64,000 nt of DNA from Uloborus plumipes (Eukaryota > Arthropoda > Arachnida > Araneae > Uloboridae): the NCBI GenBank assembly GCA_038373865.1, contig JAXGGA010001033.1, forward strand, positions 1-64,000, written 5' to 3'. Below the pieces are notes generated by a model, which saw nothing but the letters and a program-made list of their open reading frames with translations, had not been told where the DNA came from and ran no database searches. Both the position numbers and the translations under genes were made by a program. Shown here in pieces: positions 7,331 through 62,568 of this stretch (its first letter is position 1; the number at the start of each line of letters is the position of its first letter).

Positions 7331-8302
7331 CTGTAAGTAATCAAATATTTCTTTGATTTCAGAAAAAGTTAGGAGACTTTTTGTAAATTGATATTTTTTC
7401 AATACTGTATCTAAATACTTACTAATACAGTCGAACCTGTTTATCTCGAAAACCTCTCTACGTTAAGTTTTTCAATTTTTTTTTGCTCTTACAGCATACA
7501 TTTAATGTTTTTTCTCTCGTTTATCTCGAATGATTTTTATCGAAAACCTCTATATCTCGAATTTTGACGACTCTTTTTGAATTTTCACCTCCAGCCACCT
7601 TTATCAATGGTATAACTTGTGGAGACAAAAATCATCTTTTGCACAATCATTCAAAGACTATGTTCGTACTTAGCGGTATGCATTAATTTGCTACCCATGT
7701 AGTCATCACAATTAGTAAAACGTGGACTCACAACATGTCGTACAGTAGGGTGTATCGAAAAAAACTTTTTTTCGAAATTCAATTTACTAAGTTGATAAAA
7801 AGTTGCCCCTACCTACCCACATATTCCACAAAAAATTTCAGTCTAATCAGAAATTGTTTAGGTGTTCCGCACAAGGCCTGAAGTTTGTGAATTTCTTCAA
7901 AAATATGATTTTTAAAATTTTTTTTTAAATATTAAGAATAAATGTTAAAAATAATTCAAGTTGAAAAATGTGTACCGCAAAGTCGGAGGACAAAATTGGG
8001 TTTGAAAAAGAGTACATTAAACAACATTTAAATCTCCCACGTTTATTCTGAACTTACGTAATTTTCACCAAAACTTGCATTTTACAAGTCTATGCGGCTT
8101 GGTTAGAAACTTGTTTATGAATGTGGAATCTAACTGAAATAACACTTGAAACTGGGACTCATCTGTGATTAATGTGGAGTAAAAAGTAAAATAATATAAA
8201 CTATAAACGGAATCTAAGCCCCTCGTCACACAGTGCCCGCGTTTCTATCGGAGCCCCGTGATGGTAAACGAAGTACAACTCCGCTAGCGTAGCTGCTTTA
8301 GG

Positions 8303-8990
8303 ATGGCAGAAGAACATCTATCTTTGGTTGAGGAAACAGACTCTAAATATTTCGGACATGGTTCTCCAGTAAATGGCCCAAGAAAAGAAATTGTAGCTTT
8401 AGTTTCACGATTTATAGAAAAAAAAAGTTTTATTGATAAAGAACATAAAAACTATCGGTTGTGATGGCACATCAGTTAACACTGGAAAATCAAATGATGC
8501 TATTAGACTTCCAGAAAAGTCTTTAGAACCCTCACTACAAGCTATGGTATGTTTTCTTCATTTAATGAATTACCACTTAGAAAGTTAACGGGGGCTCTTG
8601 ATAAACCGACTACTGGACAAAATTCTTTTAGTTGAACTATTGGAGAATTCTAACAATATTGGTAAGATCTACCAGTCATGAACTTTAAGAAAATAAAACG
8701 CGTTTTACCAGAAGTTGACGTCAAAGAATTGAGTCAAAAATACTTATGGGATGTGTCAAAAGCTGTAATGTCTGGCAAATGTTCTTAAAATTTAGCAGAA
8801 AGGAACCCTGCAAACTTTTCCCATGTAAGATGGCTCACGATGGTAAAGTTTTGAGGCTATACATCGCAGGTAGTGATCCAAGTTCAGAGTTAAATAAACT
8901 AGCATAATTGATAATAAAGGTTTATGCTCTCTGCTTTTTCACAATCGAATCTCAGCATAACATTATTCATGCATTTAAGCATTTTTTAAG
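8303..8990 (+). pseudogene. Degenerate hAT-like transposase fragment (left arm and spacer)
   Basis: An ATG at 8303 opens a 54-codon frame, then a frameshift leads to residues reading GCDGTSVNTG, FLHLMN and GALDKPTTGQNSF, and further on LAERNPANFSHVRWL. From memory this matches a widespread uncharacterised transposon protein family in arthropods and other animals, with a CDGT...NTG signature followed by an LHxNELP-like motif. The CDG aspartate would be the first catalytic residue of an RNase H-like hAT fold, which is inference. Several frameshifts and stops make it non-functional. Homology continues a short way into the unique spacer and then ends, so the C-terminal half is missing. Confidence 0.68.
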
Positions 8991-9082
8991 ACCATAGATT
9001 GCAACAAGAATTTGGATTCAAATCTCCAAAATGTTATCCATTCCACATTGTAAAGAACTCATCTTGCCTGGGAAAAAAGCTT

Positions 9083-9712
9083 GCAGGGTTCCTTTCTGCT
9101 ACATTTTGAGAACATTTGCCAGACATTACAGCTTTTGACACATCCCATAAGTATTTTTGAATCAATTCTTTCCCAAGTAGCACACTTCGTTTTTTAAAGG
9201 TTGTAAAATAGTTATTAACGTTGTAACAACCGCTTAAAAACGTTTATAAAACGTTTAAAAGTTATTTGTGCTACCTGGGTTGACATCAACTTCTGGTAAA
9301 ATGCGTTCTATTTTCTTAAAGTTCATGACTGGTAGATCTTAGCAATATTGTTAGAATTCTCCAATAGGTCAACTAAAAGAATTTTGTCCAGTAGTCGGCC
9401 TATCAAGAGCCACCGCTAACTCTCTAACCGCTAAGTGTTAATTCATTAAATGAAGAAAACATACCACGGCTTGTAGTGAGGGTTCTAAAGATTTTTCTGG
9501 AAGTCTAATAGCATCATTTGATTTTCCCGTGTTAACTGATGTGCCATCACAACCGATAGCTTTTATGTTCTTTATCAATAAAACTTTTTTTTTTCATAAA
9601 TCGTGAAACTGAAGCTACAATTTCTTTTCCTGGGCCATTTACTGGAGCACCATGTCCGAAAAATTTAGAGTCTGTTTCCTTAACCAAAGATATGTTATTC
9701 TGCCATCCTAAA
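9083..9712 (-). pseudogene. Inverted second copy of the hAT-like transposase fragment (right arm)
   Basis: This is the reverse complement of the coding piece in the left arm, including the CDGT...NTG segment (about 9530-9560) and the region around the start codon (about 9700-9712). It has its own substitutions, so the arms have been separate for some time. A MITE at 9172-9279 interrupts it. Confidence 0.7.
9172..9279. mobile_element. 108-bp MITE nested in the fold-back arm
   Basis: The left end CCCAAGTAGCACA is matched inverted by TGTGCTACCTGGG. Comparison with the uninterrupted left arm (8716-8740) gives the exact empty site and suggests a TT target duplication. It dates after formation of the palindrome. 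Confidence 0.8.
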
Positions 9713-10425
9713 GCAGCTACGCTAGTGGAGCTGTATTTCGTTTACCATCACGGGGGCCCCGATAGAACGCGGGCACTGTGTGGCGAGGGGCTTAGATTCT
9801 GTTTATATTATTTTACTTTTTACTTCACATAAATCACACATGAATCCCAGTTTCAAGTGTTAATTCAGTTAGATTCCACATTCATAAACAAGTTTTTAAC
9901 CAAGCCGCATGGCCTTGTAAAATGCTAGTTTTGGCGAAAATTACGTAAGTTCAGAATAAATGTGGGAGATTTAAATGTTATTTAATATACTTTTTTTTAA
10001 ACCCAATTTTGTCCTCCGACTTTGCGGTGTACATTTTTCAACTTGAATTATTTTTAACATTTATTCTTAATATTAAAAAAAAATAGAAAAAAATCAAATT
10101 TTTGAAGAAATTCATAAACTTCAGGCCTCGTGCGGAACACCTAAACAATTTCTGATTAGACTGAAATTTTTTGAGGAATATGTGGGTAGGTAGGGGCAAC
10201 TTTTTATCAACTTAGTAAATTGAATTTCGAAAAAAAGTTTTTTTCGATACACCCTATCGTACAGTAAAGTATTCAACAATGCCAATGCAAAACAATCTAT
10301 TAAGTATTTGACTTTGTTCCAATTGCTTATTTTTGTAAATTTTATCACAACCTCTGTATCTCGGAACCTCCGTATCTCGATTTTTTCTTCTGTCCCGTGA
10401 AATTCGAGATACACAGGTTTGACTG

Positions 10426-12860: not shown

Positions 12861-13631
12861 CTATGCAGAACCCAAAGAAAAACATCTTTTTAAGGCTCTT
12901 CCTTGCTCGTCAAATTGGAAAAAATTGCTTGAATTGCAAACTTTCTCTGGTATTTTATACTTATCACCTAAAAACGGCATGTAGCCTGACTTCTCACTAC
13001 TATCTTCATTGCCATCATCGCTTTCACTGGACAAACTTGGAGGATTCGATGCACAAACTGCCATCAGAGAGTTTTTGCTATGACTACTGCTATGGGGGCT
13101 AAGATCAAACACATCATTATCTACATCCAAAATGGAATCCACACTTAAAAAATTGGGATTCGGCGATAACGGTTTTCTGTTAAAACTAACAAAATCATCC
13201 TTACGTATATCAGCACCAGCATAATAAATACAGTCAGCAAGATCTGGTAGCGATCTACAATAGCGATAGCTCCTACTTACGTAAGTCTCTGTAAGTTCAG
13301 GATCGGATGTGAAACTTTGCAAGAATACGTGTAAAAGATTCTGCTTTGAGATACTCTCCGATGTTGAACCATCGGATAAAAGCTTCTTAGCAAGTTCGGC
13401 GTCAGAGAATGCATTGCATCTATGCAATTTAGCTTTTGGGGTTTGCTCTCCGGATAACTTCCTCTGAATGATTTTTAAGCTTGGAGCATCATCAGCGGAT
13501 ATCACTTTGATATCAGGTATTGAAAAGCATCTTTCCTTGTTGTCCGCTTGCTTGCTTACTGATGTTTTCAGAAAGCTTTTATTGGCCTTGCTCATGGAAT
13601 CCTTTTCGGTTGGATTCAGTTTCTTTGCCAT
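12861..13631 (-). CDS. Coding exon, 256 residues, unidentified serine-rich protein
   Basis: A single open frame of 256 codons begins with ATG at 13631, directly after an acceptor-like TTTTCTTTCAG, and ends at 12861. The coding sequence may therefore continue from an upstream exon, with this ATG internal. The protein is rich in Ser, Asp and Lys and predicted largely disordered, with no membrane segment. A short motif recurs: ERCFSIPD, HRCNAFSD, YCRSLPD and KRCFSLGS at the C-terminus. The first matches the R-x-x-S-x-P pattern of some 14-3-3 sites, a weak inference. The exon is clearly GC-richer than its flanks. I do not recognise the family. The phase-2 end of the 15334-15487 candidate does not join this frame directly. 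Confidence 0.72.
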   Translation of the reverse strand: MAKKLNPTEKDSMSKANKSFLKTSVSKQADNKERCFSIPDIKVISADDAPSLKIIQRKLSGEQTPKAKLHRCNAFSDAELAKKLLSDGSTSESISKQNLLHVFLQSFTSDPELTETYVSRSYRYCRSLPDLADCIYYAGADIRKDDFVSFNRKPLSPNPNFLSVDSILDVDNDVFDLSPHSSSHSKNSLMAVCASNPPSLSSESDDGNEDSSEKSGYMPFLGDKYKIPEKVCNSSNFFQFDEQGRALKRCFSLGSA

Positions 13632-19613: not shown

Positions 19614-22600
19614 TTAAAACCTTTTATTATTCTTCCGCTTTGATTTTTTTGATTTTTTACCCTTCTTTTCAGACGCTTTTTTCTGATCTTGCTCCAGTTT
19701 AGAAGATTCATTAGGTTCTGCACATTGAGCACTTCCATGCAACATTTCATTGCAGTCTGAGTCTTGCTTTTTAATGTCCACATCAAGATTTTCTATGTTA
19801 TCAGCCACATCTCCGGTACGAACGTCAGTCGTTTCAGCAGTGTGTTTGGATGTTCCAGCAGCCAATTCAGCAACACCTCCAGCATTCATAGCAGCCGCAT
19901 CAGCTGTGTCTTCTTTATTCGGAGTTTCTGTTTCGAAAACATCTCCGATAATCAAAGCAGCCGCTTCAGCAGCATCTGAAGCATTCAAAGAAGCCGTATC
20001 TGCTCTGTCTCCTTCATTCGGAGTTTCTATTTTGGTACCATCTCCGATAACCAAAGCATCAGCTTGAGCAACATCTCCAGTATTCAGAGCAGCAGTATCA
20101 GCTATGTCTCTTTCACTCTGAGTTGTACTTTTCGTAACATCTCCGATAATCAAAGCAACCGCTTCAGCAGCACCTAAATCATTCAAAGAATCAGTATCTG
20201 CTCTGTCTCCTTCATTCGGTGTTTCCCTCTCGGTAACATCTCCGATAACCAAAGTAGCAGCTTCAGCAACACCTCCAGCATTCAGAGCAGCCATATCAGC
20301 TATGTTTCCTTCACTCTGAGTTGTACTTTTCGGTACATCTCCGATAATCAAAGCAGCCACTTCAGCAACACCTCCAGCATTCAAAGAAGCCGTTTCTGCT
20401 CCGTCTCCTTCATTCGGTGTTTCCCTCTCGGTAACATCTCTGATAACCAAAGCAGCAGCCTCAGCAACACCTCCAGCATTCAGAGCAGCCGTATCAGATA
20501 TGTCTCTTTCACTCTGAGTTGTACTCTTCGTAACATCTCCGATAATCAAAGCAGCCGCTTCAGCAACATCTCGGGCAACATCGTAATCCGTTTCAGCTAA
20601 AATGTTCACATCAGTTATTTTCAAATTTCCATTAGAAGAGATCTCAACAATCACTGGATTAGTGTTACATGCTCTTTTCTTTTTCTTTTTCTTTTTGTTT
20701 TTACGTTTGCCACTAGTTCTTGAAAAGCCTTTTTCTGATTCGTGATATGATGGTGGTGGGGAGAGACGTGACAAGGTTGTGGGATTGTTTATTTGGGTAT
20801 CACTTGGTTTGAAAGGTATTCCTTGACCCTGGTGCAGACGTCCAAATTTTGGATCAAAAACTTCAATTTGTTGGTAAAAAGAACTTTTATCATATTCAGA
20901 TATTGGGCTGTTTTTGCATTTTTTAGAGAATTCGTTCTCGTTGGAGTTTAACATAGTTTGAGTTTCCTTGTTCAAAAGTTTGAGCACAAGGCATGCATTG
21001 TTTTCATTAATTTCATTGGAAGGTAAAGTTTCTGGCTGGATGTCGAATGGAACCAGGTTTTTTTCTTCTCTCCGATTCTTAAGGTAAGTTTTTAGACTCG
21101 TATTTTGCCTCCAATCTTTTAACTCTGGAGAAGCCTCTAAGATACCAGAAGTTTCTAGCTCAGCTATTTGCAATGATGAGTTTTGATGAAGTAACTCTTT
21201 GGAATTATCAGTATTGCTTTCAGAAGGGTTTGATAATTTAGAAATATGTTCGTCCGTAGCGAAATTATAATTAGTCATTTGAGTTTGAAAATCTGAATTA
21301 CCATCATGCTCTATTAGCTGATTCGAAGCAGTTGATTCATATTGCTGGTAAAATCGGTCGATTGGGTTGCAATACACAACTTGTATTAATTTAAGCTCGT
21401 CAATAATTCGATTTAAATTTTCTAAGTCTGCTTTTTCAATGGATGTTGTGCTATCGCCGGCAAAAAAGTTTAGCACTTGACATTCTTGCAACGCAGCTAT
21501 AAAAAACTCTGAACCAAGCACATAAGATTTTTTAGCATTGGTAAGTGGGAAGAACTGTTGTTCGCTCTCATTGACTTTTTTCAGACGGCCTTTTGATGCA
21601 CCTATCATACTCTCTGCAACTAAATCTATGCTTCTCAGAGTAAAAGCTACCGATTTATCCTCCCCTCTACCATCGGTTAATTTCTCTTTGGAACACAATT
21701 CAGGAATATTTAGGCAATCGGAAGAATTTTCAGAAAATATTTTTGGACGAGCTCCGCTAAATTGTTTGCACGTAACTTCAGGCTCGTCGTTTATACCACT
21801 CACATGATCAATGTCTTCAGTAGTTTTCCTGTCAAAATAGTCAATGTTATTTTTACTATCTTTATGATCTGGAAATTCAGATAATGTATCCTCATTGCTG
21901 TTACAGCAGGAATTCCGAAGCACTGGAGTTTTAGTACCCTGATTTTCAAAAGTAGTACCCTTGCAAGTAGTAGATTTAAACTCGACATTTTCAGAAACTT
22001 CAGATTCATGATCCTCGTCTTTGCAAACTTTAGAGGCGCGAAATATAAACTCATTATTACAAACTTTACCAGTGGGTGAGTTAAGAGCACCACTTATCTC
22101 ATTATCGTGTACTTCGTAAGCATAGCTAATTTGCATGTCGTCAATTGGATTTTCAAGCTCCATATCATCACAACCTTTGTAATCAGGAGATTCAATAGAT
22201 ACAGACTCCATATGTTCAAGAACTTTATAAAGAGGAGATTCAGGAGATTCAAGCTCCATATCTTCGAGAATTTTATCAGCTGGAGATTCAAGCACCACAT
22301 TTTCAAGAGCTTTTTGAACCGGAGATTTAGGTTCCACTTCTTTAAAAACTTCATGAACTAAAAGTTTGGGAGAATCACGCTCCATATCTCCTAAAGCTTT
22401 ACGAACCGGTGATTCAAGAGAATTCGGCTTCATATTTTCAAGAGCTTTGCGAACGGAAGGCTCAGGAGATTTAAACTTCACATCTTCAAGATATTCATGA
22501 ACTAAAGCTTTATGAGATTTAAGCTCCACATCTTTAAGAGTTTTATTAATCGGAGATTTAAGCTCCACATCATCAAGAGCTCTTTGAGCCGGAGATTTAG

Positions 22601-24752
22601 AAGATTCGAGCACCACATCTTCCGGAGCGTCAAGAGTAGATGATTTAGGAGATTCAAATTCTACATATCTAAGAGTTTTATTACCCAGCGATTCAACATT
22701 TTCAGGCTCCATATCTGCAAGAGCTTTATAAACCCGAGATTCTGGAAATTTAAGCTCCGCATGTTCAAGAGTTTTATGATCATGGGCTTTAGGAGATTCG
22801 AGGTCCATATTCACAACGGCCTTGTTAACCGAAGATTTAGGAGAGTCAATCTCCGCATTTTCAAAAGCTTTATGAACCGTAGATTTAGGAAATTCAAGCT
22901 CTATACCTTTACGGGGCTCATGAGCTGGAGATTGGATCTGTACATCTTCAAGAGCTATATGAACCGGAGATTCAAGAGAATCAAGATCTATATATTTACG
23001 AACTTTATGAACCGGAGATTTAGAAGATTTAAACTCCACATCTTTAGGAGTTTTATTTACCGGACATTTCGGAGATTCAAGTTCCATATCTTCAGGAGCT
23101 TTATTTACCTGAGATTTTGGAGATTTAAATTCTGCATCTTTAACAGTGTCATTAGCCGGTGGTTCAAAATATTCAGGATCCATATCCTCAAGAGCTTTGT
23201 GAACACGACATTTCAAAGATTTAGACTCCACTTCAAGATCAACATGAGCTTTAGGAAATTCAAGCTCCACATTTTTCAAATCTTTATGAGCCGGTGATTC
23301 AAGAGACTCATGCCCCATATTTTCAAGAGCTTCACAAACTGGAGGTTGCATTGAGCTCCTCCTGCGTTCAAGCTCTACATCTTTTACAACATTGGCTAAA
23401 TTTTTAGTGACAGTAATCAGACTTGTATTGGCTGTGCATTCAAGTTCTTTATGCTCAAAAACTTCGACAGGAGCTTTTACTGAAGTTTCGAACATAAAAT
23501 CGTTATGAAGTTCATTTTCAGAAATTGCTTTCTTAGTTTCAGAAGAATCAGTAGCGACTGTTTTACTGCATCCATGTTCTTCCAGAATAGAATCTTTTCG
23601 TCCTTCAGATTTTGATATTTTGCACAGTTCAGAAGTTGACATGTTTTCAGTTTCAGCAATTTCTTCATTTGTTTTGATCTTGAAACCTTTCAAAGAAGCA
23701 GTTCGGTCAATATTGAGGTTCCAGTTTACTTTCATGCTTGTATCAGTGATATCCCGAACAGGAGCTTCAGACAGCACATTTTTATGAGATTCTTGGCCAG
23801 CAGAAGCTACTATATCTTCAATAACAACGTCGGCTAAAGTTTCCAACTCTGTGCTTTGAGGTTTCTTATTACCTGAAGATGCAAACGCTTTATCTTCAAG
23901 AATTTCTTCAGCAGCTTTAACTAAAAATGCAAACATAGAATCATTCCGAAGTTGATGTGCTGAAGTAGAGTTTTTATTTTCAGAAAAACCAAGTTCACAT
24001 TCCGGAATAGTTTGATTAGTTTCAGAATAACCTACAGCGGCTGTTTCACATAGCTCCTTACTTGGAACGTTAGAAGTAGAAGCATCTTCATTTTCAGGAC
24101 TGCAAGTTTCATTCGCAGGTACGGAGAATTCATTAACTTCAAGACGCAAATCGTCTGGTCCTTTAGATTCCGATCTTCCACATGCTTCAGGAACAGACTT
24201 GTTTTCTTTTTTAAAAACTTTTGTATGGGTTTTCAGAGTGAAAACTTTGAAAGATTCTGCCCTGTCAGTATTGAAATTCCACTTTGCTTTTACGTTTTCA
24301 TGAGAGAGCTTGTCAAAATCAATAAAAGCAACATTGTCATTAATGGTAGCGCAATTATTAGAGCATTCTTCGTCCTCCGAACTGCAATCTTCAGAATCGG
24401 ATTTGCAACAAGTAACCGTTACAGTTTTTGTCTTAGATCGCAATTTGCAAATTAGCATGCTTCCTGTTGACGCCGGAGTCTCGCGATTTGTCTGTGTACT
24501 AGCATCATTCTGAAGTATGCTTGATTCAGAATCAGACGATGTACTGTAGAGTTTTTCCTCGCTAGCTGCAGTATTTACTTGTCTAGAGTCTGTAATGCCA
24601 TCGTTATTTAGCAATGATTCTAAGTATCGTTCAACTAATCTTCCTACTTGTGCGACAACCTCATAAAATGCTCTAGTTAGTTTCTCGATAAGACGCAAAA
24701 ACAGTAAGCAGCATACTGTCACCAAAATCATTTTGTCCTGGCAGCTTGTATT
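19614..24752 (-). CDS. Long exon encoding a 1705-residue repeat protein, unidentified
   Basis: One uninterrupted frame runs from ATG 24731 to TAA 19614-19616. A good acceptor (TTATTCCTGTTTCAG) ends at 24753, and the seven codons between it and the ATG are in frame, so the true start may lie in an upstream exon. Residues 2-12 are hydrophobic and could be a signal or membrane segment. A block of about 190 residues is duplicated (from about residues 144 and 332; markers KWNFNTDRA and NWNLNIDRT). Residues about 463-860 hold some 25 copies of a 16-residue repeat like VHKALEDMELESPKSP, several shortened to 13. A lysine-rich stretch lies near 1343. Residues about 1388-1620 hold seven 33-residue repeats like VAEAAALIIGDVT..., with KSTTQSE and ETPNEGD types alternating. 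The C-terminus is lysine-rich. The protein is strongly acidic outside the lysine blocks. No family recognised. Confidence 0.85.
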   Translation of the reverse strand, partial: NTSCQDKMILVTVCCLLFLRLIEKLTRAFYEVVAQVGRLVERYLESLLNNDGITDSRQVNTAASEEKLYSTSSDSESSILQNDASTQTNRETPASTGSMLICKLRSKTKTVTVTCCKSDSEDCSSEDEECSNNCATINDNVAFIDFDKLSHENVKAKWNFNTDRAESFKVFTLKTHTKVFKKENKSVPEACGRSESKGPDDLRLEVNEFSVPANETCSPENEDASTSNVPSKELCETAAVGYSETNQTIPECELGFSENKNSTSAHQLRNDSMFAFLVKAAEEILEDKAFASSGNKKPQSTELETLADVVIEDIVASAGQESHKNVLSEAPVRDITDTSMKVNWNLNIDRTASLKGFKIKTNEEIAETENMSTSELCKISKSEGRKDSILEEHGCSKTVATDSSETKKAISENELHNDFMFETSVKAPVEVFEHKELECTANTSLITVTKNLANVVKDVELERRRSSMQPPVCEALENMGHESLESPAHKDLKNVELEFPKAHVDLEVESKSLKCRVHKALEDMDPEYFEPPANDTVKDAEFKSPKSQVNKAPEDMELESPKCPVNKTPKDVEFKSSKSPVHKVRKYIDLDSLESPVHIALEDVQIQSPAHEPRKGIELEFPKSTVHKAFENAEIDSPKSSVNKAVVNMDLESPKAHDHKTLEHAELKFPESRVYKALADMEPENVESLGNKTLRYVEFESPKSSTLDAPEDVVLESSKSPAQRALDDVELKSPINKTLKDVELKSHKALVHEYLEDVKFKSPEPSVRKALENMKPNSLESPVRKALGDMERDSPKLLVHEVFKEVEPKSPVQKALENVVLESPADKILEDMELESPESPLYKVLEHMESVSIESPDYKGCDDMELENPIDDMQISYAYEVHDNEISGALNSPTGKVCNNEFIFRASKVCKDEDHESEVSENVEFKSTTCKGTTFENQGTKTPVLRNSCCNSNEDTLSEFPDHKDSKNNIDYFDRKTTEDIDHVSGINDEPEVTCKQFSGARPKIFSENSSDCLNIPELCSKEKLTDGRGEDKSVAFTLRSIDLVAESMIGASKGRLKKVNESEQQFFPLTNAKKSYVLGSEFFIAALQECQVLNFFAGDSTTSIEKADLENLNRIIDELKLIQVVYCNPIDRFYQQYESTASNQLIEHDGNSDFQTQMTNYNFATDEHISKLSNPSESNTDNSKELLHQNSSLQIAELETSGILEASPELKDWRQNTSLKTYLKNRREEKNLVPFDIQPETLPSNEINENNACLVLKLLNKETQTMLNSNENEFSKKCKNSPISEYDKSSFYQQIEVFDPKFGRLHQGQGIPFKPSDTQINNPTTLSRLSPPPSYHESEKGFSRTSGKRKNKKKKKKKRACNTNPVIVEISSNGNLKITDVNILAETDYDVARDVAEAAALIIGDVTKSTTQSERDISDTAALNAGGVAEAAALVIRDVTERETPNEGDGAETASLNAGGVAEVAALIIGDVPKSTTQSEGNIADMAALNAGGVAEAATLVIGDVTERETPNEGDRADTDSLNDLGAAEAVALIIGDVTKSTTQSERDIADTAALNTGDVAQADALVIGDGTKIETPNEGDRADTASLNASDAAEAAALIIGDVFETETPNKEDTADAAAMNAGGVAELAAGTSKHTAETTDVRTGDVADNIENLDVDIKKQDSDCNEMLHGSAQCAEPNESSKLEQDQKKASEKKGKKSKKSKRKNNKRF
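19850..20570 (-). repeat. Coding tandem repeat, 99-bp units paired as 198-bp dimers
   Basis: Seven 33-codon units. Odd units carry KSTTQSERDI-like and even units ERETPNEGD-like middles, with a mixed last unit. This dimer pattern points to duplication in two-unit steps. The frame is preserved throughout. Confidence 0.85.
22150..23345 (-). repeat. Coding tandem repeat, 48-bp units
   Basis: About 25 units of 16 codons, with 13-codon variants that drop three residues between SP and the next unit. Units of ALEDM...LESP type tend to alternate with TLKDVEFKSP type. All length changes are multiples of three, so the frame is kept. Confidence 0.85.
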
Positions 24753-24905: not shown

Positions 24906-25952
24906 AAATCAGCCTAGTCATTGTTGCTGGATATGTTTAACGCTCTTGTGAGAGTTTCATCTGTATTTATATCTTACGAGTTCTTAATTGCACATATTAG
25001 CATAAATTCAATTTCAAGCGCTAAAATCTTTAATGACATTAACCCTACACTGCATGATTTTTTATTTTTCGTAGAAAAAAATATATGTGTTTGTCAATGT
25101 AATAAGAAAACATGGAAAAATATTTTAAAAAATTTAACTCTAAATTTTCACCCCTTTCTAATTAAAACTAGTTTTGTTGCCAAATGGCTACACCATGCAT
25201 TCAACAGATAAAAATGATCGTAAATGATAGTCTTGAAATTAGTTCTTTTTTGTAAAAAAAATAGAGGAATTCAACATTTGGTGCAATGTACTCTTGTAAT
25301 CCTTTACATTTTGGCATTTTACATTAGTTTTTATATGTACTTGTACTTTCCGATGATCAATTCTGTCAAATCTGATGTCTTTTGGAGGCTTTCTCGCGCA
25401 AGCACTCTTTCTTTTCTCTTTTTTTTTTTTTTTGGTTTGTAACTAGTTCCTCTGTAGCTAATGGTCTCTTTTTAATACGCTTTTATTAATTTCACATGTG
25501 GGTTTGTTTGTATGTATGTAACTCTGAATAAAAGATAAAATTTAAGTTCTTTGCAAACATAAAATTAATATATTTAATATTATTTTTAATACTAAAGGCT
25601 AAACTGTATTACACATTGATGTATTATAAGTACATGTAAACTTAAGTGCGGATATTCAGTAGTTTTGAAAATCAGAGGGAAACCCGTGATGATCACAGCG
25701 CATTCCAATGTAAAAGCGTATTTTTTAGTTTTCTTTTCAAAACTATATTGTAAAATTATTAATGACTTTACTTGTCCGTATAAGCACAACGTTTGTGCTA
25801 ACTGAAATCTAAAATGAACACGTTTTAAAGGATTTTCCGTATTGATTTTTTGTTTGTTCACTCTGTTGAACATCAACTAAGCATTGATAATTGCGAGGTC
25901 TTATAAACGGTAGAACAGCCGAAAGTACCACTTTTGGGTCCGCATGATTATA

Positions 25953-27344
25953 TACTGCTCGACATTGAAAATGCAACACCAAGAAGGAGTGGTCAGAAAT
26001 TGATGAAATTTGGTAAGAAGACGGAGACAGCATGGAACAATAAGTGATATTTATTTCAAAATAAATAAGCAAAATTTAGAGCGAGGACACCGCGGACAGC
26101 GATGCACGAAGAAACACGTCTAGGCATGAAGTCAATAAGCCTGCGGATGGTGTCCTGAGAGATGGCACTCCATTCCCTTTCAACCATTTGCCACAGTTCG
26201 TCCTCTGAACGAGGCAGTGACAGGTTCTGCAAACGGCGTCCAATCACGTCCCACACATGTTCGATTGGTCACAAGTCAGGAGAGTATGGTGGCCAGGAAA
26301 GCATCTGTACACCTCGTAGAGAATGTTGGCTGATTCGAGCACTGTGAGGCCGGGCGTTATCCTGTTGAAAAATTGCATTTGGCAGACCCTGAAGGTAGGG
26401 GATTGCCACCGGCCGCAGTACATTATCTACATATCGTTGGGCCGTCATAGTGCCCCGAATACGAACTAGAGGTGATACGGAATTGTATGCAATAGCGCCC
26501 CAAACCATTATGCCACGGTGTCGCGCTGTGGGGCGTTCCACAGTTACTGCCGGATTCGATCTTTCTCCACGTCGACGCCACACACGTATGCGATGACTAT
26601 CGCTGGACAAACAGAAGCGGGATTCATCTGAGAACACTACGGTTTGCCATTCTGCCATCCACGTCGCTCTGGTCCGGCACCATTCCAAACGTTGGAGTCT
26701 GTGCTGTGAGGTCAATGGCAGTTTTCTTAGCGGGCTCCGTGATTGCAGGCCACGTGCAACCAGTCGACGGGAAATGGTTCTGGTCGACACAGGAACATCC
26801 AGGGTACCTTGCACGTGCTGCAGAATCGACGTACAAGTGACTTGCGGGTCCGCCACAGCTTGTCGGTGAATCCGTCGATCCAAGCGGTCTGACGTCACTC
26901 TGGCTGCACCTGCACCCCTCAATGTTGCTACATTTCCTCTTTCCAACCATCTCCGACACAGCCGATGCACAGTGCTTGCATCCATGTGGGTATCAGCTGC
27001 AATTTGACGCATGGACCAACCTCCCCTTCTCAGTCCAATCACCAGACCCCTTGTAAAGTCGTCTATATGCTGGAAGTGTCTTCGTTGAGGACGGCGTGGC
27101 ATTTCCTCCTATCACACGTATCCTTCGAGACAAAAACCAAATTTCTCCGATAATTAGTCTGGCAGAAAAACCAACATGAACATAGCCACTTTTCAACTTC
27201 ATTCTCTTATATCTTACTTCACGTGCGTCGGAGAGCTGCGCATTTCATATCATTTGCATAACTCAGTGACGTGCGTCTACGGTAAAATTTGCATGAATTT
27301 CTGACCACTCCTTCTTGGTGTTGCATTTTCAATGTCGAGCAGTG
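25953..27344 (-). mobile_element. Tc1-like DNA transposon
   Basis: Terminal inverted repeats of about 45 bp (CTGCTCGACATTGAAAATGC inward) at both ends, flanked by TA (25951-25952, 27345-27346). The two ends are nearly identical, suggesting recent insertion. It encodes one transposase on the minus strand with a single nonsense change. Confidence 0.93.
26056..27102 (-). pseudogene. Tc1-like transposase, one premature stop
   Basis: The frame starts at ATG 27102 and would end at 26056, about 347 residues, the normal length for Tc1 transposases. The N-terminal third has the helix-turn-helix DNA-binding pattern (FTRGLVIGLRRGGWSMRQIA and a second HTH). The catalytic acidic residues are D159 (VVFSDESRF), D248 (FQQDNARPHSA) and E281 (PIEHVWD). 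My count gives 32 residues between the second D and the E, against 34 in classical Tc1. A TGA at 26269-26271 falls between PDL and PIEHVWD, just before the catalytic Glu. Related proteins have Ser or Asn there, so one base change probably inactivated the gene. The frame is otherwise intact. Confidence 0.93.
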
Positions 27345-27840
27345 TATTATACCTTCCAAAAATAGAAAGAAGCTAGCGCGAAACATAAACAAAGCACACA
27401 TACTTCATGAACTATAGATATGAATCGAAGTGTTCTCTGGATGCTTACTGCATAATGTTGCCAAATGGCTACAGACGTGTATTATGTCCTAGATTTTTTC
27501 CAAATAATTATTTTGATGTAAAACGCATCTTAAACGAAAGATAAATGTTTATTTTATTCATGTTATTTTTTTAAAAGACGAAGAAAAATATTTCATTGTA
27601 AAAAATAATTTCAAAACATGGTAGTTTGAGTGATTTTAAAAGCTATCCATATGGATTCATTTAAGAGCATGTAACAGACCAGTGCTGCCATGTATGGAGG
27701 ATAAATGATGATAATTGCTTTAAATATACCCAATACTTGCTTTTTATGCATTGAGTTGCCTTATGACTACATTATGCCATTCATAAGGAGGACAAATTGT
27801 CCATGTAGCCAACTGGCAACACCATGCAGTGTAGGGTTAA

Positions 27841-32331: not shown

Positions 32332-34027
32332 GGGTGAGTTCTGGTAAGTGCGTCCACGGGGTAAGTGCGTCCACTGGGAATTACATGAACACTGTCCTGA
32401 AATGGCTTCTGCAACACATCGACTATGTTAGATAACTGTCTAATGATAATTTCAATAGGTAGAATTCAGGCCTGGATTCAATAGACGAAACACAATCAGA
32501 GACAACTTAAATGTGTTAAAAAAAACTCTAAAGTAAAGATTGAGAAGGTTTTGCTTCAGTTTCTCTTGCAGTCATACCGAGCAATTAAAGTCAAAAAATG
32601 CAAGTTGTTTCTTTTGAGTAATAGCTACTAATAACATACATGGGGTATTTTGATCAAATACTCTAACTAAAATTTGTTTATATGACGGTACGCACTTTCC
32701 CTTTCTTTAAAGTAAGGTGGGGTAAGTGCGTACCATTATGATGGGGCAAGTGCGTACCACTATCATGAGGCATATGCGTACTATTATGCGGAGCAAGTGC
32801 GTACCATTATGATGAGGCAAGTGTGTACCATTACGTGGAAAATCCGACTCTCGTAATTCACCTTTAATTTTGCTTATAACTCTTTTATAAGCCGATTATA
32901 AATCCGACGTCATTTCCATCAAGTATTTATATTTACATTGAATGCGGCATAAGATTTCAATTTTATTCATTACCTCTGAAATATATTGGCTTTTAGATAT
33001 CAGTTAGTAAATTTTTCGTTGAAAATAGCGATCATAAGCTATACTTAATTTAAACCAGAATGACAAATGAAGCAATGAAATTAAGTGAAACACTAAATAA
33101 GGAACCAACTGATTCAAAAAACGAAGGTGGAGTAATGAATAAATTATATTTAAGAAAATTAAGAACACCTTGTGAAAAACTATTTCAATGTACAAGAAAA
33201 AAAAGTACAAGTATCATATCATGATCAATTATTTTCTTTTTTTTTTTTTGCTCTTTATTTTGTGTTTTTTCTTACTGCTGCTGATTCTAATAAGAAAAAT
33301 ATTTTAAAACCGTATTTATTCAAAAAAAAAAAGAAAAAAAAACGAATTGTTCACTCAGGTCACCTAACGATCTACCATACAAATAGAATTAAAGAAAATC
33401 ACAGGGGTACGCACTTACAACAACGCTATTGGACGCACATGTCTCATCTTACATTTAAGAAGGGGTAAGTGCGAACCCTGGCTTAAACACAGACTGATTA
33501 ATGTATTAAACCAAAATAAACTATGTAGACTATAAGTGATTATTACTAAATAAAAACAACTTACATTTGCTCACTTGGTCTTATTAAAAGGACAGAGGAA
33601 GAATCACAGACACAACTCTCTCAATCTTCAAATCACAGTTGTTCGCAAGACACGTGGGATATCACTGATTGCGTTTCATCCATGCAAGCAAGAGCTGATC
33701 TCTAGTATTAGGAATTATCCCAAGGCAACTACCTAAAATATTTAATATGTGCCAGAAGTTTTTCCCTGCTCATATTCACATAATTCAAGGTGGACGCACT
33801 TACCCCGCTAGGTAGGGAAAGTGCGTACCTTAGAATAGGTGTCATAAACCAGGTCACAAAACCTATGCTTATGGTTTATTTAACATATTATATGCTTGAA
33901 AATCTTAGTGAAGGATCTAGAAAGAAAACTTTAAAAAAATTGTGAGTGTACAAGATTTTTCAACAGAGCAGCATCCTTGAGAACACGAACTTTGAAAAAA
34001 AGGGTACGCACTTACCAGAACTCACCC
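32332..34027. mobile_element. 1.7-kb element with iterated GTAAGTGCGTAC motifs
   Basis: The ends GGGTGAGTTCTGGTAAGTGC and its complement (to 34027) are flanked by TA (32330-32331, 34028-34029). About a dozen copies of the inner motif (G)GTAAGTGCGTAC or variants occur at 32344, 32360, 32705-32830 (five in a row at about 26-bp spacing), 33405-33475, 33790-33830 and 34003, in both orientations and denser toward the ends. The motif's GGTAAGTG also matches a consensus 5' splice site. No transposase-like frame was found. Confidence 0.75.
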
Positions 34028-50410: not shown

Positions 50411-52380
50411 GAGGAAAGCAATACGAGAGTGACTGATACTTATGTATATTTCCTTCCTTTTACGAAGTAAAGAAAACTTTGCAGTCACGAAAAAATGTTC
50501 ACTTTAATATCGGTCGAAATTTCCTTTTTGCTCACCTGTGAATGAACGTTGATTAGTTTTTTCAACTAGTCAGCACATGCATATGTACCTGTGAACAGCC
50601 AGAATATCCATTTTGACCACTCGTGAGCTATTTATCACGAGTTTTCTCGTAAAGTCTGTATGTACGTATGTATAATGTATGTATGAATTTCCCATGAATC
50701 AAAAACGGTAACCCGTAGAAGATTCTAATTTTCCATTTAGGCACCGAGTGGGATCTAGTTGCCCCTTTTGATTGTATTCGAATGTTCCAAAGTGTCTTTA
50801 TCTCCTTAAGGAGTAAATCTTATAATTTCAATACAAATTCAAGTAATCTTTTGATTTAGCGAACATTTGGCGATATATCGCATGCCTTTGGTCGCGTAGT
50901 AAGTGGCAAATTTGATTATTTTTTATTTATTTATTTTTTTGGTTTTTGACTATATTTTGTGAAAAATCTGCTAAATTATGTTAAAAATTGGCGATATTTG
51001 GAAGATAATTCATTGTAAAACATGTTTATGTATCCAAGGCACTGTTATATTGTATTTTGTTTTTAAACACGTTCCATGGAGTTCTGTGTAATTTTAGATC
51101 ACAGACGCTATTTAGAATATCACTTTTCTTTACATTTGAAATTTTATTTTCTTAAATTTGACTACAGTTTTTCGCGTCGGAAACAATCTAAAATGCTGCT
51201 CATATAAAAAAAGAAAAAACTTCAAATATGAAATTTAGATGTGGAAGGAAGTAGTGTTAGGTTCACACCAGATTTTTTGGCGCTCATTTCAGGGAAAAAG
51301 GTGAAAAATTCCATCACGTCTGGATTTCCTGAAAAATTGATTTTGATTTTTTCTATAATTTGCTTCAAAAATAATTATTTCGACAAATTTTACATGCCTT
51401 ATCTGCTTTTTTCTTTCACTTATATAATCTATTCTAACGATTCACATTGGTTTTTCAGCAATAAATGGCTTTTTGTTGGTTTAGGAAAAAGGATAAAAAT
51501 ATGCCAAACTTTACTTATCCAGAGATCAAAAAAATAGCTATGTACCTCAGGAATAAAATTTCTTTACAAAAAAAAATTTGGGAGTACATAGTATGAAAAA
51601 ATATTGCCTAATAGACTTAATCCATATACAAAAAATTATGACACCAAAATTTGCTGATTTTACACGGAGTGACGTTGTAGCCAGATTGCATTAACCTCCT
51701 CTTGGAGATAGAAAAACTCAAAATCTCTTGATTTTGAACTTTATACATCGAATTATGTAAAGGAAAACCTTTTTTGTTTTATTTTTTACTGTTTTAAATT
51801 CGTTTTAGTAAGCTGGCTACAGTGTTTATGAAATATGGCTAAATGGCCATTCAATGTAGTATCAATAAGTTTTCGCGTCGTACTATTTTTTATTTTGATC
51901 AAGTTTGACGGGCAATCTGTATAAATATTCTGTACTCATGAACAGTTTTATTTCATTTTGCTCCGTGGTTGAGTAAAAATTTGTCACTTTTGATCTTTTT
52001 AAATTTAGACCAATAAAATGATTTTTATTGCTGAAAATCAATGTGAATCATCAAAATACTATATGCAGAAGAAGAAAAAAAATGATGCCAGATATTTCAT
52101 GTAAAATACTTAAAAATACTTACTTTTAAAACAAATATATAAGAAAAACAGAAATCAATTTCGTTAAAAATCCTGATGTGATGGGATCAAAAATGGAAGT
52201 CATTTACAAAATTAGAGACCAAACCCCATACGCCACTGAAAGAAAAACTGTTTTTGAAGTTTTCCAAAAGTTAAGGCGCGTAGTTATCTGTTATATTTTT
52301 TACGCAAGGTTGTGTGTATGTGTTTACATGGGGGGCGAGGGAGGGTATGTATGTTCACGCACGTGTGTAGGCAGTCATGT
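50411..52380. other. AT-rich intergenic DNA
   Basis: Short GTAT/TATG-rich patch near 50655-50690. No supported gene; the open frames here have no coding character. Confidence 0.45.
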
Positions 52381-54850: not shown

Positions 54851-56879
54851 AGGCAGTCGTTTGTTTTGTGTGTAGGACATGGACGTTTCCACAAGCAGGG
54901 GTGGAGGCCGAGGACCTGCACCTTCTGCAGCAGGGGTCGGTGCACCTCCGAGGAGGTGGAGCACAGTCCATTCTCCCGGAGGGAGCCTCCGAGTCCAAAG
55001 CAGAGGTAGGTTTACCTTTGAGGTGGTGGACCAAGGTCCTCTCTACCCCGGTGATATGCTCAGTCCAATCTGAAACACGAAACAGACGACCCCTACAGTT
55101 GAGAATGAACAAAAAAGCAATTCATCCTTACTCAGTAAAAATTGTAATTTAAATTGTAACATCTTCGAATTTTAGATTCTTTAATTCAAATAATATTTTT
55201 CGCAATCAGGAATTGCTATATGTGTGTGTACATGTGTGTTTATATGTGTGTAGGCAATCGTGTGTTTGTGTGTAGGATATGGACACCACCCCTAAGCCGG
55301 GGCAGAGACCGAGGACCTGCACCTCCTGCAGCAGTGCATGTCCGAGGAGGTTTACCAACGTCCTTTCTCCTGGTGGAAGCCTCCGAATCCAAACAGGGGT
55401 CGATTTACCCCTGAGGTTGGGGACCAGGGTCCTCCCCAAGCCCTTCCGTGGCATGCTCAGTCCAATCTGAAACACGAAACAAACGACCCCTACAGTTGAG
55501 AATGAACAAAAAGGCAATTCATCCTTGCTCAGTAAAAAAATGTAATTTAAATTGTAACATTCTCAAATTTTAGCATCTTTAATTCAAATTATATTTTTCG
55601 CAATCAGGAATTGCTATATGTGTGTGCACGTGTGTGTTTATATATATATGCGTGTGTAGGCAGTCGTGTGTTTTGTGTGTAGGACATGGACGTCTCCACA
55701 AGCAGGGGTGGAGGCCGAGGACCTGCACCTCCTGCAGCAGTGGTCGGTGCACCTCCGAGGAGGTGGAGCACAGTCCATTCTCCCGGAGGGAGTCTCCGAG
55801 TCCAAAGCAGAGGTAGGTTTACCTTTGAGGTGGTAGACCAAGGTCCCCTCAACTCCGGTGATATGCTCAGTCCAATCTGAAACACGGAACAAACGACCCC
55901 TACAGTTGAGAATGAACAAAAAGGCAACTCATCCTTGCTCAGTAAAAAAATGTAATTTAAATTGTACATTCACGAATTTTAGCATCTTTAATTCAAATTA
56001 TATTTTTCGCAAGCAGGAATTGCTATATGTGTGTGGACGTGTGTTTTTATATAAATATGCGTGTGTAGGCAGTCGTGTGTTTTGTGCGTAGGACAAGTAC
56101 GTCTCCACAAGCAGGGGTGGGGCCGAGGACCTGCACCTCCTGCAGCAGGGGTCGGTGCACCTCCGAGGAGGTGGAGCACAGTCCATTCTCCCGGAGGGAG
56201 CCTCAGAGTCCAAAGCAGAGGTAGGTTTAACTTTGAGGTGGTGGACCAAGGTCCTCTCTACCCGGTGATATGCTCAGTCCAATCTGAAACACGAAACAGA
56301 CGACCCCTACAGTTGAGAATGAACAAAAAAGCAATTTATCCCTGCTCAGTAAAAAAATGTAATTTAAATTGTAACATCTTCGAATTTTAGCACCTTTAAT
56401 TCAAATTATATTTTTCGCAATCAGGAATTGCCGTATGTGTGTGTGTACATGTGTTTATATATATATATATGTGTGGGTAGGCAGTCGTGTGTTTTGTGCG
56501 TAGGACATGTACGTCTCCACAAGCAGGGGTGGGAGCCGAGGACCTGCACCTCCTGCAGCAGTGGTCGGTGCACCTCCGAGGAGGTGGAGCACAGTCCATT
56601 CTCCCGGAGGGAGTCTCCGAGTCCAAAGCAGAGGTAGGTTTACCTTTGAGGTGGTAGACCAAGGTCCCCTCAACTCCGGTGATATGCTCAGTCCAATCTG
56701 AAACACGGAACAAACGACCCCTACAGTTGAGAATGAACAAAAAGGCAACTCATCCTTGCTCAGTAAAAAAATGTAATTTAAATTGTAACATCTTCGAATT
56801 TTAGCACCTTTAATTCAAATTATATTTTTCGCAATCAGGAATCGCCGTATGTGTGTGTGGACATGTGTGTTTATATATA

Positions 56880-58307
56880 CACTGGCGGAAAAAAAAATCC
56901 CAACACCAAGAAAAAATTGCCGTAGAGTAATGAAATTTGGGTAATGCAATTGTCTAGTTAACATGTTTAATTGATTAAATGTACAAGATCACTGGCTAAT
57001 TTAAGCTCAAGAAAATGCTGTGCAAATGTGAAATTATGTTAATTTAATAGAGGGTGTAACCTCCAGAATTTTGAAGGCAAGCCTGCAAGCGTGAATGCAT
57101 TATGTCATACAGGTGCCGAATGTCACTTTGAGGTATGGAGTTCCAGCTTGTTGCACTTGCTGTGTCAATACTAGGACCGTCATTGCTGACTGTGGATGAT
57201 GCTCGAGGTGCCATCCCATGATATCCCATACGTTATCAATTGGAGACAGACCTGGTGATTTTTCAGGTCATGGTAACATGTCAGCACTCTGTAGAGCACA
57301 TTGCGTTATAGCAGCGATGTGAGGGCGAGCGTTATCCGGTTGGCAAACGCCCCCTTGAATGCTACTCATAAAGGGCTGTACTACTGCGGTTAAATTAACA
57401 GACTGATGACAAATTTTCAGTCAGTGAGTTTGGGATAACCACAAGAATGCCCCTGCTGTCTCAGGAAATTGCTCCAGAGACCATAACTCCAGGTGTGAGT
57501 CCCGTTTGTCTAGGCCGTAGACCGCTTGGATGCAGGCGGTCCCCTGGCCTCCTTCTGACCAATATACAGCCACCACTGGCACTAATTCAGAATCTGTTTT
57601 CATCAAAAATTACAACAGATCTCCACTCCGACCTCCAGTGAGCTCTGTCGCGGCACCTCTGCCGTCGGAAAAGGCAATGGTTGCAGTCGATGGAATACCG
57701 GTTACAGGCTGCCTGGCTCGGAGCTGTCCTTGAAGTAAACAGTTTCTTATCGTTCCTTGGGTCACGACGGTACAAACTGCAGCTCGAATGTCAGCCGCAG
57801 ATGCAGTACGATGCGCCACAGCCGTACGCAAGATTCGGCGATCTTCCTTCTCAGTCGTGCCACGTGGCAGCTCGGAACTCGATCTTCTTGATGTAGCACC
57901 ATCCTTTGCCCATAGCTTCCAATAATCAGGCATGGTGGAAACATTCCCACCCAAGTCTTTCTGCAATATCGCGAAATGAAAATCCACCTTCTCGTAGCCA
58001 AATTGTACGACCTCGTTTAAACTCGGTGAGCTGTTGATAATGGCTTCTTCGTCTTCTTAAAGGCAGTCCTGGCTAACGTGAACGCAATTCGTCAAATTTC
58101 ACGGAAAAATAATGCACACGAGCTTCGAAACACGCTTTTAAAACAAGCTTTATTTGCATGTTCCATATGACGCCAGCTGCGCCACACCTGTGAGCGGAAC
58201 ACGAAATTTCAATCGATGTCATCTTTCAGTTGTATAAACACGCTTACCAAATTTCGTTTATCTAACACAAGTCTTTCTTGGTGTTGGGATTTTTTTTTCC
58301 GCCAGTG
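56880..58307 (-). mobile_element. Tc1-like transposon inserted in the satellite
   Basis: The ends CACTGGCGGAAAAAAAAATC and their complement are flanked by TA within the TATATA part of a satellite unit (56878-56879, 58308-58309). Length 1428 bp. It encodes only a broken transposase. Its ends differ from those of the Tc1-like element at 25953-27344, so it is another family. Confidence 0.92.
57044..58001 (-). pseudogene. Degenerate Tc1-like transposase
   Basis: Pieces of a Tc1 transposase lie in different minus-strand frames. An N-terminal part runs about 57987-57670 (HTH region with RTASAADIRAAV). A segment ending HWRSEWRSVVIFDENRF carries the first catalytic Asp (about 57590-57640). A C-terminal part near 57050-57160 reads NSIPQSDIRHLYDIMHSRLQ. 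At least two frameshifts and several stops separate them; the middle catalytic region is eroded. Confidence 0.85.
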
Positions 58308-58945
58308 TATATATATGTGTGTGTAGGCAGTCGTGTGTTTTGTGCGTAGGACAAGTACGTCTCCACAAGCAGGGGTGGGGCCGAGGACCTGCACCTCCTG
58401 CAGCAGGGGTCGGTGCACCTCCGAGGAGGTGGAGCACAGTCCATTCTCCCGGAGGGAGCCTCCGAGTCCAAAGCAGAGGTAGGTTTAACTTTGAGGTGGT
58501 GGACCAAGGTCCTCTCTACCCCGGTGATATGCTCAGTCCAATCTGAAACACGAAACAGACGACCCCTACAGTTGAGAATGAACAAAAAAGCAATTTATCC
58601 TTGCTCAGTAAAAAAATGTAATTTAAATTGTAACATCTTCGAATTTTAGCACCTTTAATTCAAATTATATTTTTCGCAATCAGGAATTGCTATATATGTA
58701 TGTACATGTGTGTTTATATGTGTGTAGGCAGTCGTGTGTTTGTGTGTAGGACATGGACGCCACTCCTAATCCGGGGCAGAGACCAAGGACCTGTACCTCC
58801 TGTAGCAGTGCATGTCCGAGGAGGTTTACCAACGTCCTTTCTTCTGGTGGCAGCCTCAGAATCCAAACAGGGGTCGATTTACCCCTGAGGTTGGGGACCA
58901 GGGTCCTCCCCAAGCCCTTCCGTGGCATGCTCAGTCCAATTTAAC

Positions 58946-59775: not shown

Positions 59776-62568
59776 TAGGAGATATCACGAAATTTTTTTT
59801 TGTAAATTCAAATTTTCAAGTTGATAAAAAGTTGTCACTATATTCACATAGTTACCAAAAAAAATTTTTTTTAATTGAAAAATATTTATATATGCCGGGA
59901 TTAGCTTGAAGTTTTAAGTTTTTTAGTCAACACGATGATTTTTTTGAAAAAATGCATAAATTATGTGTAAAGCAAAAATAATTATTTAAGTACAAAAATG
60001 GACTACTGGAGGTGCAATCTATTTAAAAAATGTATTGAGATAAAATTTAACTTTTAGGTCTCCAGGAATCCTTATGAAAAATCTCATTTTTGCCAGTCCG
60101 TTGGGTTTTTAGAATAGTTGCCCATCCTACAGAATAATTTCTAATATTGCATAAAAAGACTAAACATTGCAGTACAGAGCTTTGAAATAGCGATATTACT
60201 ACTGCATAATTACTGGAGTACAGTATTACAGTCTGAGTTCAAGGTCGTATCGCTTCCCTGTGACTATGGAAAAAGGTGCTACGTGCGTAAGAACGTCCGT
60301 CGTGCGATTCTGCCCGGATCCGTGTTGATTTCTTTTGTCAGTCTGTTTTTCTGCAGTTCTGATTTGTGATGGTATTGGCATGTTAGGTGTTGATTTGCTG
60401 ATTCATTGCCGTGAGCAGAATTACTCATTCTAAATCTACAATAAACGCTACGGACGTTCTAGTAGTCGGCCAACTTCTAGCTACAAGTTTTACCTACTAA
60501 AATTGTTGGGCTACGTTATTTCGAATGGGTAAGAAACCAGTTGTAATGTGAAGGATGTCATCAATCAAAAAAAAAAAAAAAGGTAATGGCAATGCGAGTG
60601 GCCTTTGAGCTAGAAAAAAAATCGGAGAAGGCTCCTATTCCTGTTTCATCAACAAACAATGTTGTTTTATTATTTTAAAACTGCATGGGAAATGTAAAAA
60701 GTTAACAAAAATCATCAGGGTGTAACACAAAACTGCCAAGAGCTGTAAAACGTAACTTGAAAACTTCAGATATGGCGTTGTGAATAGTCTTTTCAATGAA
60801 GAAAATAAATACCTTTGTGCAATTTATGTGAAGTATAAATCCAACGTTAAACGTTGGATTTACACTTCAGTCTTTTCAATATATTTGTTTATATTACTGT
60901 AAAGATTTAGCGAAATGTTTGGGTTCAACTCTAAGGAAAGCTCACCAGCTAGATCATGCCTTCTTGAATGACCAGCGACACATGAGGCTTATGATTATTG
61001 GAGGCATTGATGCAGCATAAAACTCAAAACACGTAACAAAAGGGGAAAAAAAAGTATTTACAATCCTAGATACAGAAATCTGCGACCAATAAAAACACCT
61101 GCTTTGAAACATGAATGCACTCTTAGTGACTGATTCTATTCAGCAGGATTCAAGTGATGGCTCAATTGTTTTAGCTATTAAAAATGTTTCATCAGAAGAT
61201 AACAAATAAATTCCCTCTTACCCCAGAGAAAATCGTTCTCTGGTCTAAAAGACGAAACTGTAGTTAAAAAAAATGTGCGTGGTAAATCTGTTCGGTAAAG
61301 CATAAAAGAGCACATATCTTTAGTGGAAGAACTGAATTAAAAATTACTTGGTTATGTAACTCCAGACAGTGATTCGGGGGAAGACATGCATCCTCAATAC
61401 TAGGTGAGAGTTGAACTAATACTTTAACGGCAATTCACCCTCTCATGAAAAACCTTCGATGTATCAACTACAGTTTTCTGATTTTTTGGTGTCACAACAT
61501 TTAAAGCCTGAAAAAGAACACTTGCTAAATGAGCTGCTGCTCTATTGGAAATGCCTCTGCGATCACATGTTCTAGACAACGATGGCAGATTTAATGGTAG
61601 GCATTTTACTACTGAAATACGAACAATTTCTTTTTTATCCTTTGATGAAATATTTTTACTAGCTAAAACACTTCAGCCATCACTTGAATCCTGTTGAATG
61701 GAATCACTAACACTAAAACTGTATCTAGAATCACTTTAAACTTGAAAATGGCCGACTATTGGAACGTCTGTAGTGGTTATAGTAGATTTAGAATGAGTGT
61801 TTCTGGTCATGACAATGAATCAACAAATCAACACCTCTCATAGCAATACCATCACAAACCAGAACTGCAGAAAAACAGACCGACTTAAGGCCCAGTTTCC
61901 TAGGAGTGAAATCGTCGATCTCTGGCGAGGCGGCAGACGCCGCCGCCTTCTGCGCATGCGCCTGAGGCGCAGATTGACGTCGCTTCATGCTACGCTCCAA
62001 TCAAACTGGTTCTAGAGGTGGAAGCAGCAGAATCGCACGACGCTTTTACATACGTGACATCTTTCCCCAAAGTCACGCGGAAGCTATACGACCTTGAAAT
62101 CAGACTCTAATACTGTACTGCAATAATCGTACAGTAGTAATCTCGGTACTTCAAAGCTCTGTACTGCAATGTTTGTGCTTTTTGTGCAATATTAGAAATT
62201 ATTCTGTAGGATGGACGAATATTCCAAAAATCCAACCGACAGGCAAAAACGTGAGATTTTTCATAACTATTCCTGGAGACCTAAAACTTAAATTTTAACT
62301 CTAATACATTTTTTATTGATTGATTGCCCCTCCAGTAGTCCAATTTTGCACTTAAATAATTATTTTTGCTTTTTACATAATTTATGCATTTTTTCAAAAA
62401 ACTCATCGTTTTAACTAAAAAACTTGAAACTTTAAGCTAATCCCGGCATATCTAAATGTTTTTCAATTTCAAAATAAAATTTTTTGGTAACTATGTGAAT
62501 ATAGTGACAACTTTTTATCAACTTTAAATTTTGAATTTCCAAAAAAAAGTTTTTCGTGATACACCCTA
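59776..62568. mobile_element. Second hAT-like fold-back element
   Basis: The left end TAGGAGATATCACGAAA and right end (complement TAGGGTGTATCACGAAAAA) resemble those of 7746-10256, and both share a subterminal 'aagttgataaaaagttg'. The flanks ATGTATAT (59768-59775) and ATGTGCAT (62569-62576) match at 6 of 8 positions, a decayed hAT-size duplication. Outer arms of about 550 bp (59776 to about 60330; about 62030 to 62568) are inverted copies. A further inverted pair lies inside (about 61075-61210 against 61640-61735). Coding remnants lie between. Confidence 0.8.
61430..61735 (-). pseudogene. Transposase-like N-terminal fragment in the fold-back
   Basis: A minus-strand frame reads KEIVRISVVKCLPLNLPSLS, then TCDRRGISNRAAAHLASVLF and further. 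This resembles, from memory, the segment upstream of the CDGT motif in the same uncharacterised transposon family seen at 8303-8990 (CDR.GVSDRAAA pattern). An inverted partial copy of its beginning lies on the plus strand at about 61110-61210. Stops and missing parts make it non-functional. Confidence 0.5.

Follow-up and report, generated by a model that had tools for sequence, protein, structure and literature searches.

A multicopy hAT-like fold-back in Uloborus plumipes, very probably one copy of a mobile, non-autonomous transposon family

The fold-back described here occupies positions 7746–10256 (2,511 bp) of a 64,000-nucleotide stretch of Uloborus plumipes DNA, the whole of which is called the window below. 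It is inserted in another element, which we take to be pogo/Tigger-like and which measures about 480 bp once the fold-back is subtracted. The features of the locus, and a second fold-back further along the window, are as follows (strand given where one applies):

7428–10425: presumed pogo/Tigger-like element hosting the fold-back insertion, CAGTCGAACCTG.../...CAGGTTTGACTG, with TA on both sides
7738–7745: left target duplication TCGTACAG (from the sequence)
7746–8832, + strand: left arm, which opens with the terminus TAGGGTGTATCG; no coding is recognisable in about 560 bp, after which transposase-like coding follows (sequence and alignment)
8309–9062, + strand: broken transposase-like coding of the left arm and loop, residues 260–514 of P0114 (alignment)
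8833–9059, + strand: central spacer (loop), in which the reading direction of the left arm goes on (sequence and alignment)
9060–10256, − strand: right arm, an inverted copy of the same transposon end as the left arm (sequence)
9079–9159, − strand: additional right-arm coding piece, residues 405–431 of P0114 (alignment)
9172–9279: MITE-like insert of 108 bp, in the right arm only, CCCAAGTAGCAC...GTGCTACCTGGG, with a 2-bp TT duplication
9285–9702, − strand: broken transposase-like coding of the right arm, residues 260–397 of P0114 (alignment)
10257–10264: right target duplication TCGTACAG (sequence)
59776–62568: another fold-back, older, from the same transposase family, with 86% similarity between its outer arms

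An earlier note on this DNA had described a hAT-like fold-back with complementary ends, an exact 8-bp flanking duplication and arms of more than 1 kb that share a CDGT...NTG coding piece head-to-head; it did not mention the 108-bp insert, the surrounding pogo-like element or the second fold-back. Its description holds: the ends are TAGGGTGTATCG on the left and CGATACACCCTA on the right, with both coordinates exact, the duplication is found without mismatch at both flanks (eight bases at a fixed offset would agree by chance with a probability of about 3e-5), and the coding piece is present in both arms. Aligned with each other, as the note had proposed, the arms are 93.3% identical over 1,078 aligned positions (K2P 0.070), the differences being 44 transitions and 28 transversions, and their longest perfect stretches reach 82 bp. 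The terminal 200 bp match at 95% without gaps, compared with at most 39.5% for equally spaced segments in other parts of the window, sampled in 50-bp steps. When the arms are divided at 127 bp from the ends, a boundary set post hoc, 1.4% of sites differ in the outer part and 6.6% further in; the low divergence of the extremities fits selection for movable ends, and also exchange between the ends. The central junction lies at about 9060–9066. Internal tandem repeats consist of six short arrays of about two units each (Tandem Repeats Finder, score 30), and Rfam at gathering scores gave no match anywhere in the 64-kb window.

In each arm the first 560 bp or so show no recognisable coding, and the transposase-like coding that follows is broken in both. 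With P0114, a relative of 608 amino acids, as alignment reference, both arm alignments begin at residue 260, so that the first 259 residues are absent from both; the left copy extends about 240 bp deeper into the transposase gene than the right one, and the dead coding amounts to about 500 bp per arm. The aligner gives four frameshifts and four stops in the left-arm coding, to which two further stops, aligned as insertions, are added at about 8786 and 9054. One frameshift and three stop codons are common to both arms, the left arm having more. A check of 31 other copies, comprising 28 full copies and loci L036, L043 and L045, showed the same three stops in both arms of every one. Therefore, the element whose end was duplicated was already dead and had suffered internal deletion. 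The arms are one transposon end, duplicated, in agreement with the inverted duplication proposed in the note. The copies checked cannot encode their own transposase and, since the source was already dead, the enzyme must come from elsewhere. Protein-coding selection on the arms of the window copy was also considered and rejected, as the arm differences (15, 7 and 8 of 173, 174 and 172 sites at the three codon positions; p 0.15) show no excess at third positions.

The relatives of this coding sequence (P0001–P0121) are transposases of about 600 amino acids that form a family widespread in arthropods. The best match of their predicted fold is Hermes, a hAT transposase, and in the models D, D and E follow in Hermes order on an RNase H core with a helical insertion; Foldseek hits ranked by E-value place the bacterial ISCth4 transposase ahead of both Hermes and the P element. 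None of 84 relatives matches a Pfam transposase model, hATC included, at E 0.1, and for this reason the family is called hAT-like. Likewise, Pfam gave no transposase match for 10 relatives at E 1 or for the X-marked read-through of the coding, and NCBIfam none for the 5 relatives scanned. Solved structures searched by sequence yielded nothing credible, and no relative was confirmed in viral contigs, the terminal pattern included, or in bacterial and archaeal genome contigs. The hAT-like character claimed in the note is supported by the 8-bp duplication, the hAT-like ends and the transposase-like coding; the TAGGG end is presumably a hAT-type feature.

The second fold-back, at 59776–62568, is flanked by the 8-mers ATGTATAT and ATGTGCAT, which agree at 6 of 8 bases. 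Its relation to the first at the DNA level is confined to the outer 95 bp or so (80%), and its junction differs. The coding it retains corresponds to parts of residues 33–287 of P0114, in three pieces, two on the + and one on the − strand; internal deletions differ from arm to arm, and an extra GC-rich stretch (about 61890–62027) is present in the right one. Two different fold-backs in 64 kb, which are two cases and not a rate, suggest that this transposase family forms such structures readily.

Other repeats and open frames are also found in the window. Tc1-like terminal repeats at 25947–26011 and 27285–27350 surround positions 26269–27102, with a 277-amino-acid frame that has a DDE_3 match, and a second element with Tc1-like terminal repeats occupies 56872–58315. 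An inverted repeat at 32357–33807 (about 400 bp, 66% alike), with ends CGGGGTAAGTGCGTCCAC and several GTAAGTGCGTACC-like motifs inside, is possibly an older mobile element; another lies at 51308–52187 (about 240 bp, 71% alike). On the − strand, positions 19614–24731 hold a 1,705-amino-acid open frame with many similar short segments and no Pfam match, while 12861–13631 hold one of 256 amino acids with no Pfam match and no homologue found.

Copies of the first fold-back were sought in the host assembly (1,424,420,891 bases, or 1.42 Gb, in 25,906 contigs). Among 2,807 candidates the best 40 loci were scored and all were examined, namely the window copy and 39 fetched loci; the sample is thus biased to close relatives, and the copy number is a lower bound. 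Full-length fold-backs were found at 29 of these best 40 of 2,807 candidates. The other 11 (L015, L027, L033, L036, L039 and L042–L047) include truncated and rearranged loci, loci interrupted where a contig ends and loci that have no insert. Exact 8-bp duplications flank 26 of the 29 full copies, and all 26 differ from one another; the remaining three have imperfect ones (7 of 8 bases at L011 and L022, 5 of 8 at L019). The exact duplications are biased, with T at position 2 and A at position 7 in 24 of 26 each. Comparison of the 29 left flanks over 150 bp gave no matching pair; the right flanks were compared over the eight duplicated bases. The central junction is the same in 38 of the 39 fetched loci, as judged by the 20-base junction of the window copy with at most 4 mismatches at 1,302–1,316 bases from the left end; in the only exception, L033, the contig stops before that point. 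The note had named other genomic copies with this junction as a check on its reading, and a one-off assembly artefact as what would overturn it; the recurrence settles the matter in favour of genuine copies. Since these copies share a junction but have unrelated left flanks and different duplications, the whole palindrome transposes as one unit, and a single origin followed by transposition in this form accounts for them. One further locus, L043 (C2087:108300-115500), contains an expanded series of alternating inverted fold-back units inside one pair of ends, with no matching duplication at its flanks (3 of 8 bases), as if the palindrome had grown by template switching; such expansion is expected of an unstable palindrome.

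The full copies differ little from each other, pairwise divergence among the 29 having a mean of 0.0139, a median of 0.0092 and a maximum of 0.0346, and the window copy is 0.4% off the majority. Within copies, the two arms are 0.044–0.067 apart over the outer 0.98 kb. The arms descend in parallel, drifting apart. A midpoint-rooted tree of 42 arms, to which 16 of the 29 full-length copies and seven further loci contribute, groups 18 left arms together and 17 right arms together, the two clades showing matching sub-groups; since arms from old copies are intermingled close to the base, the left and right labels require three changes and not one. Many of the inner branches are weak, and 18 of the 39 are left open. 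The 108-bp insert gives a further marker, an exact 14-base motif of it being found in 31 of the 39 fetched loci. It is absent from several older copies; among insert-bearing full copies, most divergences are about 1%. Arm divergence is lower in two of the old insert-free copies, being 0.017 at L045, whose duplication ATGTGCAA is exact as read by eye, and 0.027 at L043. L036 is also insert-free (arm divergence 0.053) and belongs to the recent clade; beside the site it has one left-like and one right-like base, which suggests that the insert was lost through excision or through conversion by the other arm's sequence. The insert motif is nevertheless present in L044, a locus with about 5% divergence, so that the insert is not cleanly sorted by age. 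In the simplest account, the fold-back would have formed first, then moved, gained the 108-bp insert and recently burst.

Other readings of these data have to be weighed. One, which takes up the RNA-silencing source inferred in the note, is a silencing hairpin like maize Mu killer, whose read-through transcripts would fold, be cut to small RNAs and restrain autonomous relatives; we consider it unlikely. Mu killer, a MuDR derivative, is portrayed in PMC3440606 as internally deleted, with both ends from the transposase-adjacent end and part of the transposase gene duplicated in inverted orientation; a hairpin RNA is proposed and MuDR is silenced. According to a proposal in the same paper, the active molecules are shorter antisense transcripts, and the long hairpin may contribute. 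The present fold-back shares this anatomy, both of its ends deriving from the transposase-start end and its two partial transposase copies being inverted. Folding of the window copy is predicted to reach −1,732 kcal/mol and to include 1,002 arm-arm pairs (figures without shuffled control); the arms have the perfect stretches mentioned above, and chelicerates are described in PMC5805368 as possessing RdRP and Piwi proteins, both of which apparently act against transposons. On the other hand, the arms of the full copies are 4.4–6.7% apart, the coding of the source was already broken before the duplication, just 6 of 2,491 21-mers have a site (at most 2 mismatches) in the other fold-back of the window, and spread by transposition into many copies requires no regulatory role. 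Furthermore, Mu killer belongs to Mutator, not to a hAT-like family, and is a single dominant locus with a reported silencing effect, whereas the present family, whose silencing role is hypothetical, counts at least 29 full-length copies, 26 of them with their own exact target duplications. To our knowledge, inverted derivatives of the Mu killer kind are known as rare single loci. A mobile Mu killer, that is, dispersed hairpins with inverted transposase pieces that spread by the very transposase their dsRNA would silence, seems to us a similarly doubtful proposition. The hairpin of any read-through transcript, which the model predicts to be long and imperfect, would be a by-product of the anatomy unless small RNAs are found.

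Spread by segmental duplication would be in keeping with L043, a local expansion of palindromic units without matching duplication; given the unmatched left flanks of the 29 full copies and their 26 different target duplications, it is refuted for these 26 and very improbable for the family. Two separate head-to-head insertions that lost their inner ends would equally produce head-to-head coding pieces, yet they leave unexplained the exact outer duplications and the recurrent junction; refuted for the family and tenable at most for the very first event, they too have hardly any probability. Palindromes are often misassembled and two loci do end at or soon after the centre (L033 by a contig end, L015 past the junction), but a read folded back on itself, or any one-off rearrangement, can practically be dismissed, being refuted by the copies with their unrelated flanks, duplications and common junction, and by arms that are 6–7% different and start exactly at a terminus.

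We are thus left, with considerable confidence, with a hAT-like transposon family of mobile, non-autonomous fold-backs, of which the one at 7746–10256 is a copy. The family would have started once, when a relative that was already dead and had lost internal sequence left a gap: in the repair of this gap, each side of the break may have received a copy of the transposase-start end, the two copies then being joined unequally. The junction shows microhomology of a few bases at most. Both ends presumably being functional termini, transposase supplied in trans would move the fold-back; an intact relative, itself a presumed source, would supply it.

Several known systems resemble this family in part. 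Galileo and other Drosophila fold-back elements have long inverted arms, mobility and 7–8-bp duplications, according to PMC4168063, and the present family, moving as a unit, is like them in all three. The same paper attributes defective copies to gap repair that is inefficient and suffers abortion, slippage or template switching, and describes a nearly complete Galileo copy whose 3′ TIR overlaps the transposase coding by 69 bp (PMC4168063). Galileo differs in belonging to the P superfamily and in having long TIRs that are part of a nearly complete element, whereas the arms described here are a duplicated end with dead coding in each. The arms of Drosophila FB are built of internal tandem repeats, and those of the present family lack such a build. 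With hAT elements (Hermes, hobo, Ac, Buster, Tip) the family shares 8-bp duplications and the Hermes-like predicted fold. Ac-type hAT elements prefer nTnnnnAn targets, and the T2/A7 bias reported above agrees with this preference. Unlike them, the relatives match no Pfam transposase model and the fold-back codes for nothing intact. Terminal repeats of hAT elements are short, 10–25 bp, according to PMC3942097, and not arms of about 1.1 kb as in this derivative. Non-autonomous hAT MITEs are moved in trans, have no coding capacity and burst into near-identical copies, features which the fold-back shares, its own movement in trans being presumed; MITEs, however, are short, a few hundred bp, and without coding remnants, whereas this element is 2.5 kb long with transposase fragments in 1.1-kb arms. 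The literature matches listed included no hAT-like fold-back family of this kind.

The hairpin in the window is, very probably, a mobile parasite of a transposon and not a one-off curiosity, and an anatomy like that of Mu killer belongs here to a successful mobile family whose history is partly traceable. The transposase concerned is that of a widespread arthropod family falling outside the Pfam copy used. Should the silencing reading hold in its mobile form, unlikely as we consider it, these elements would be a self-spreading and self-limiting brake on a host transposon family, and the independent second fold-back would mean that hairpins of this sort arise again and again from the transposase family. 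The fold-back copies, dozens in number and unequal in age, would in any case allow a test of whether transposase-gene hairpins give rise to small RNAs in an animal, and of whether the small-RNA yield changes over the life of the family.
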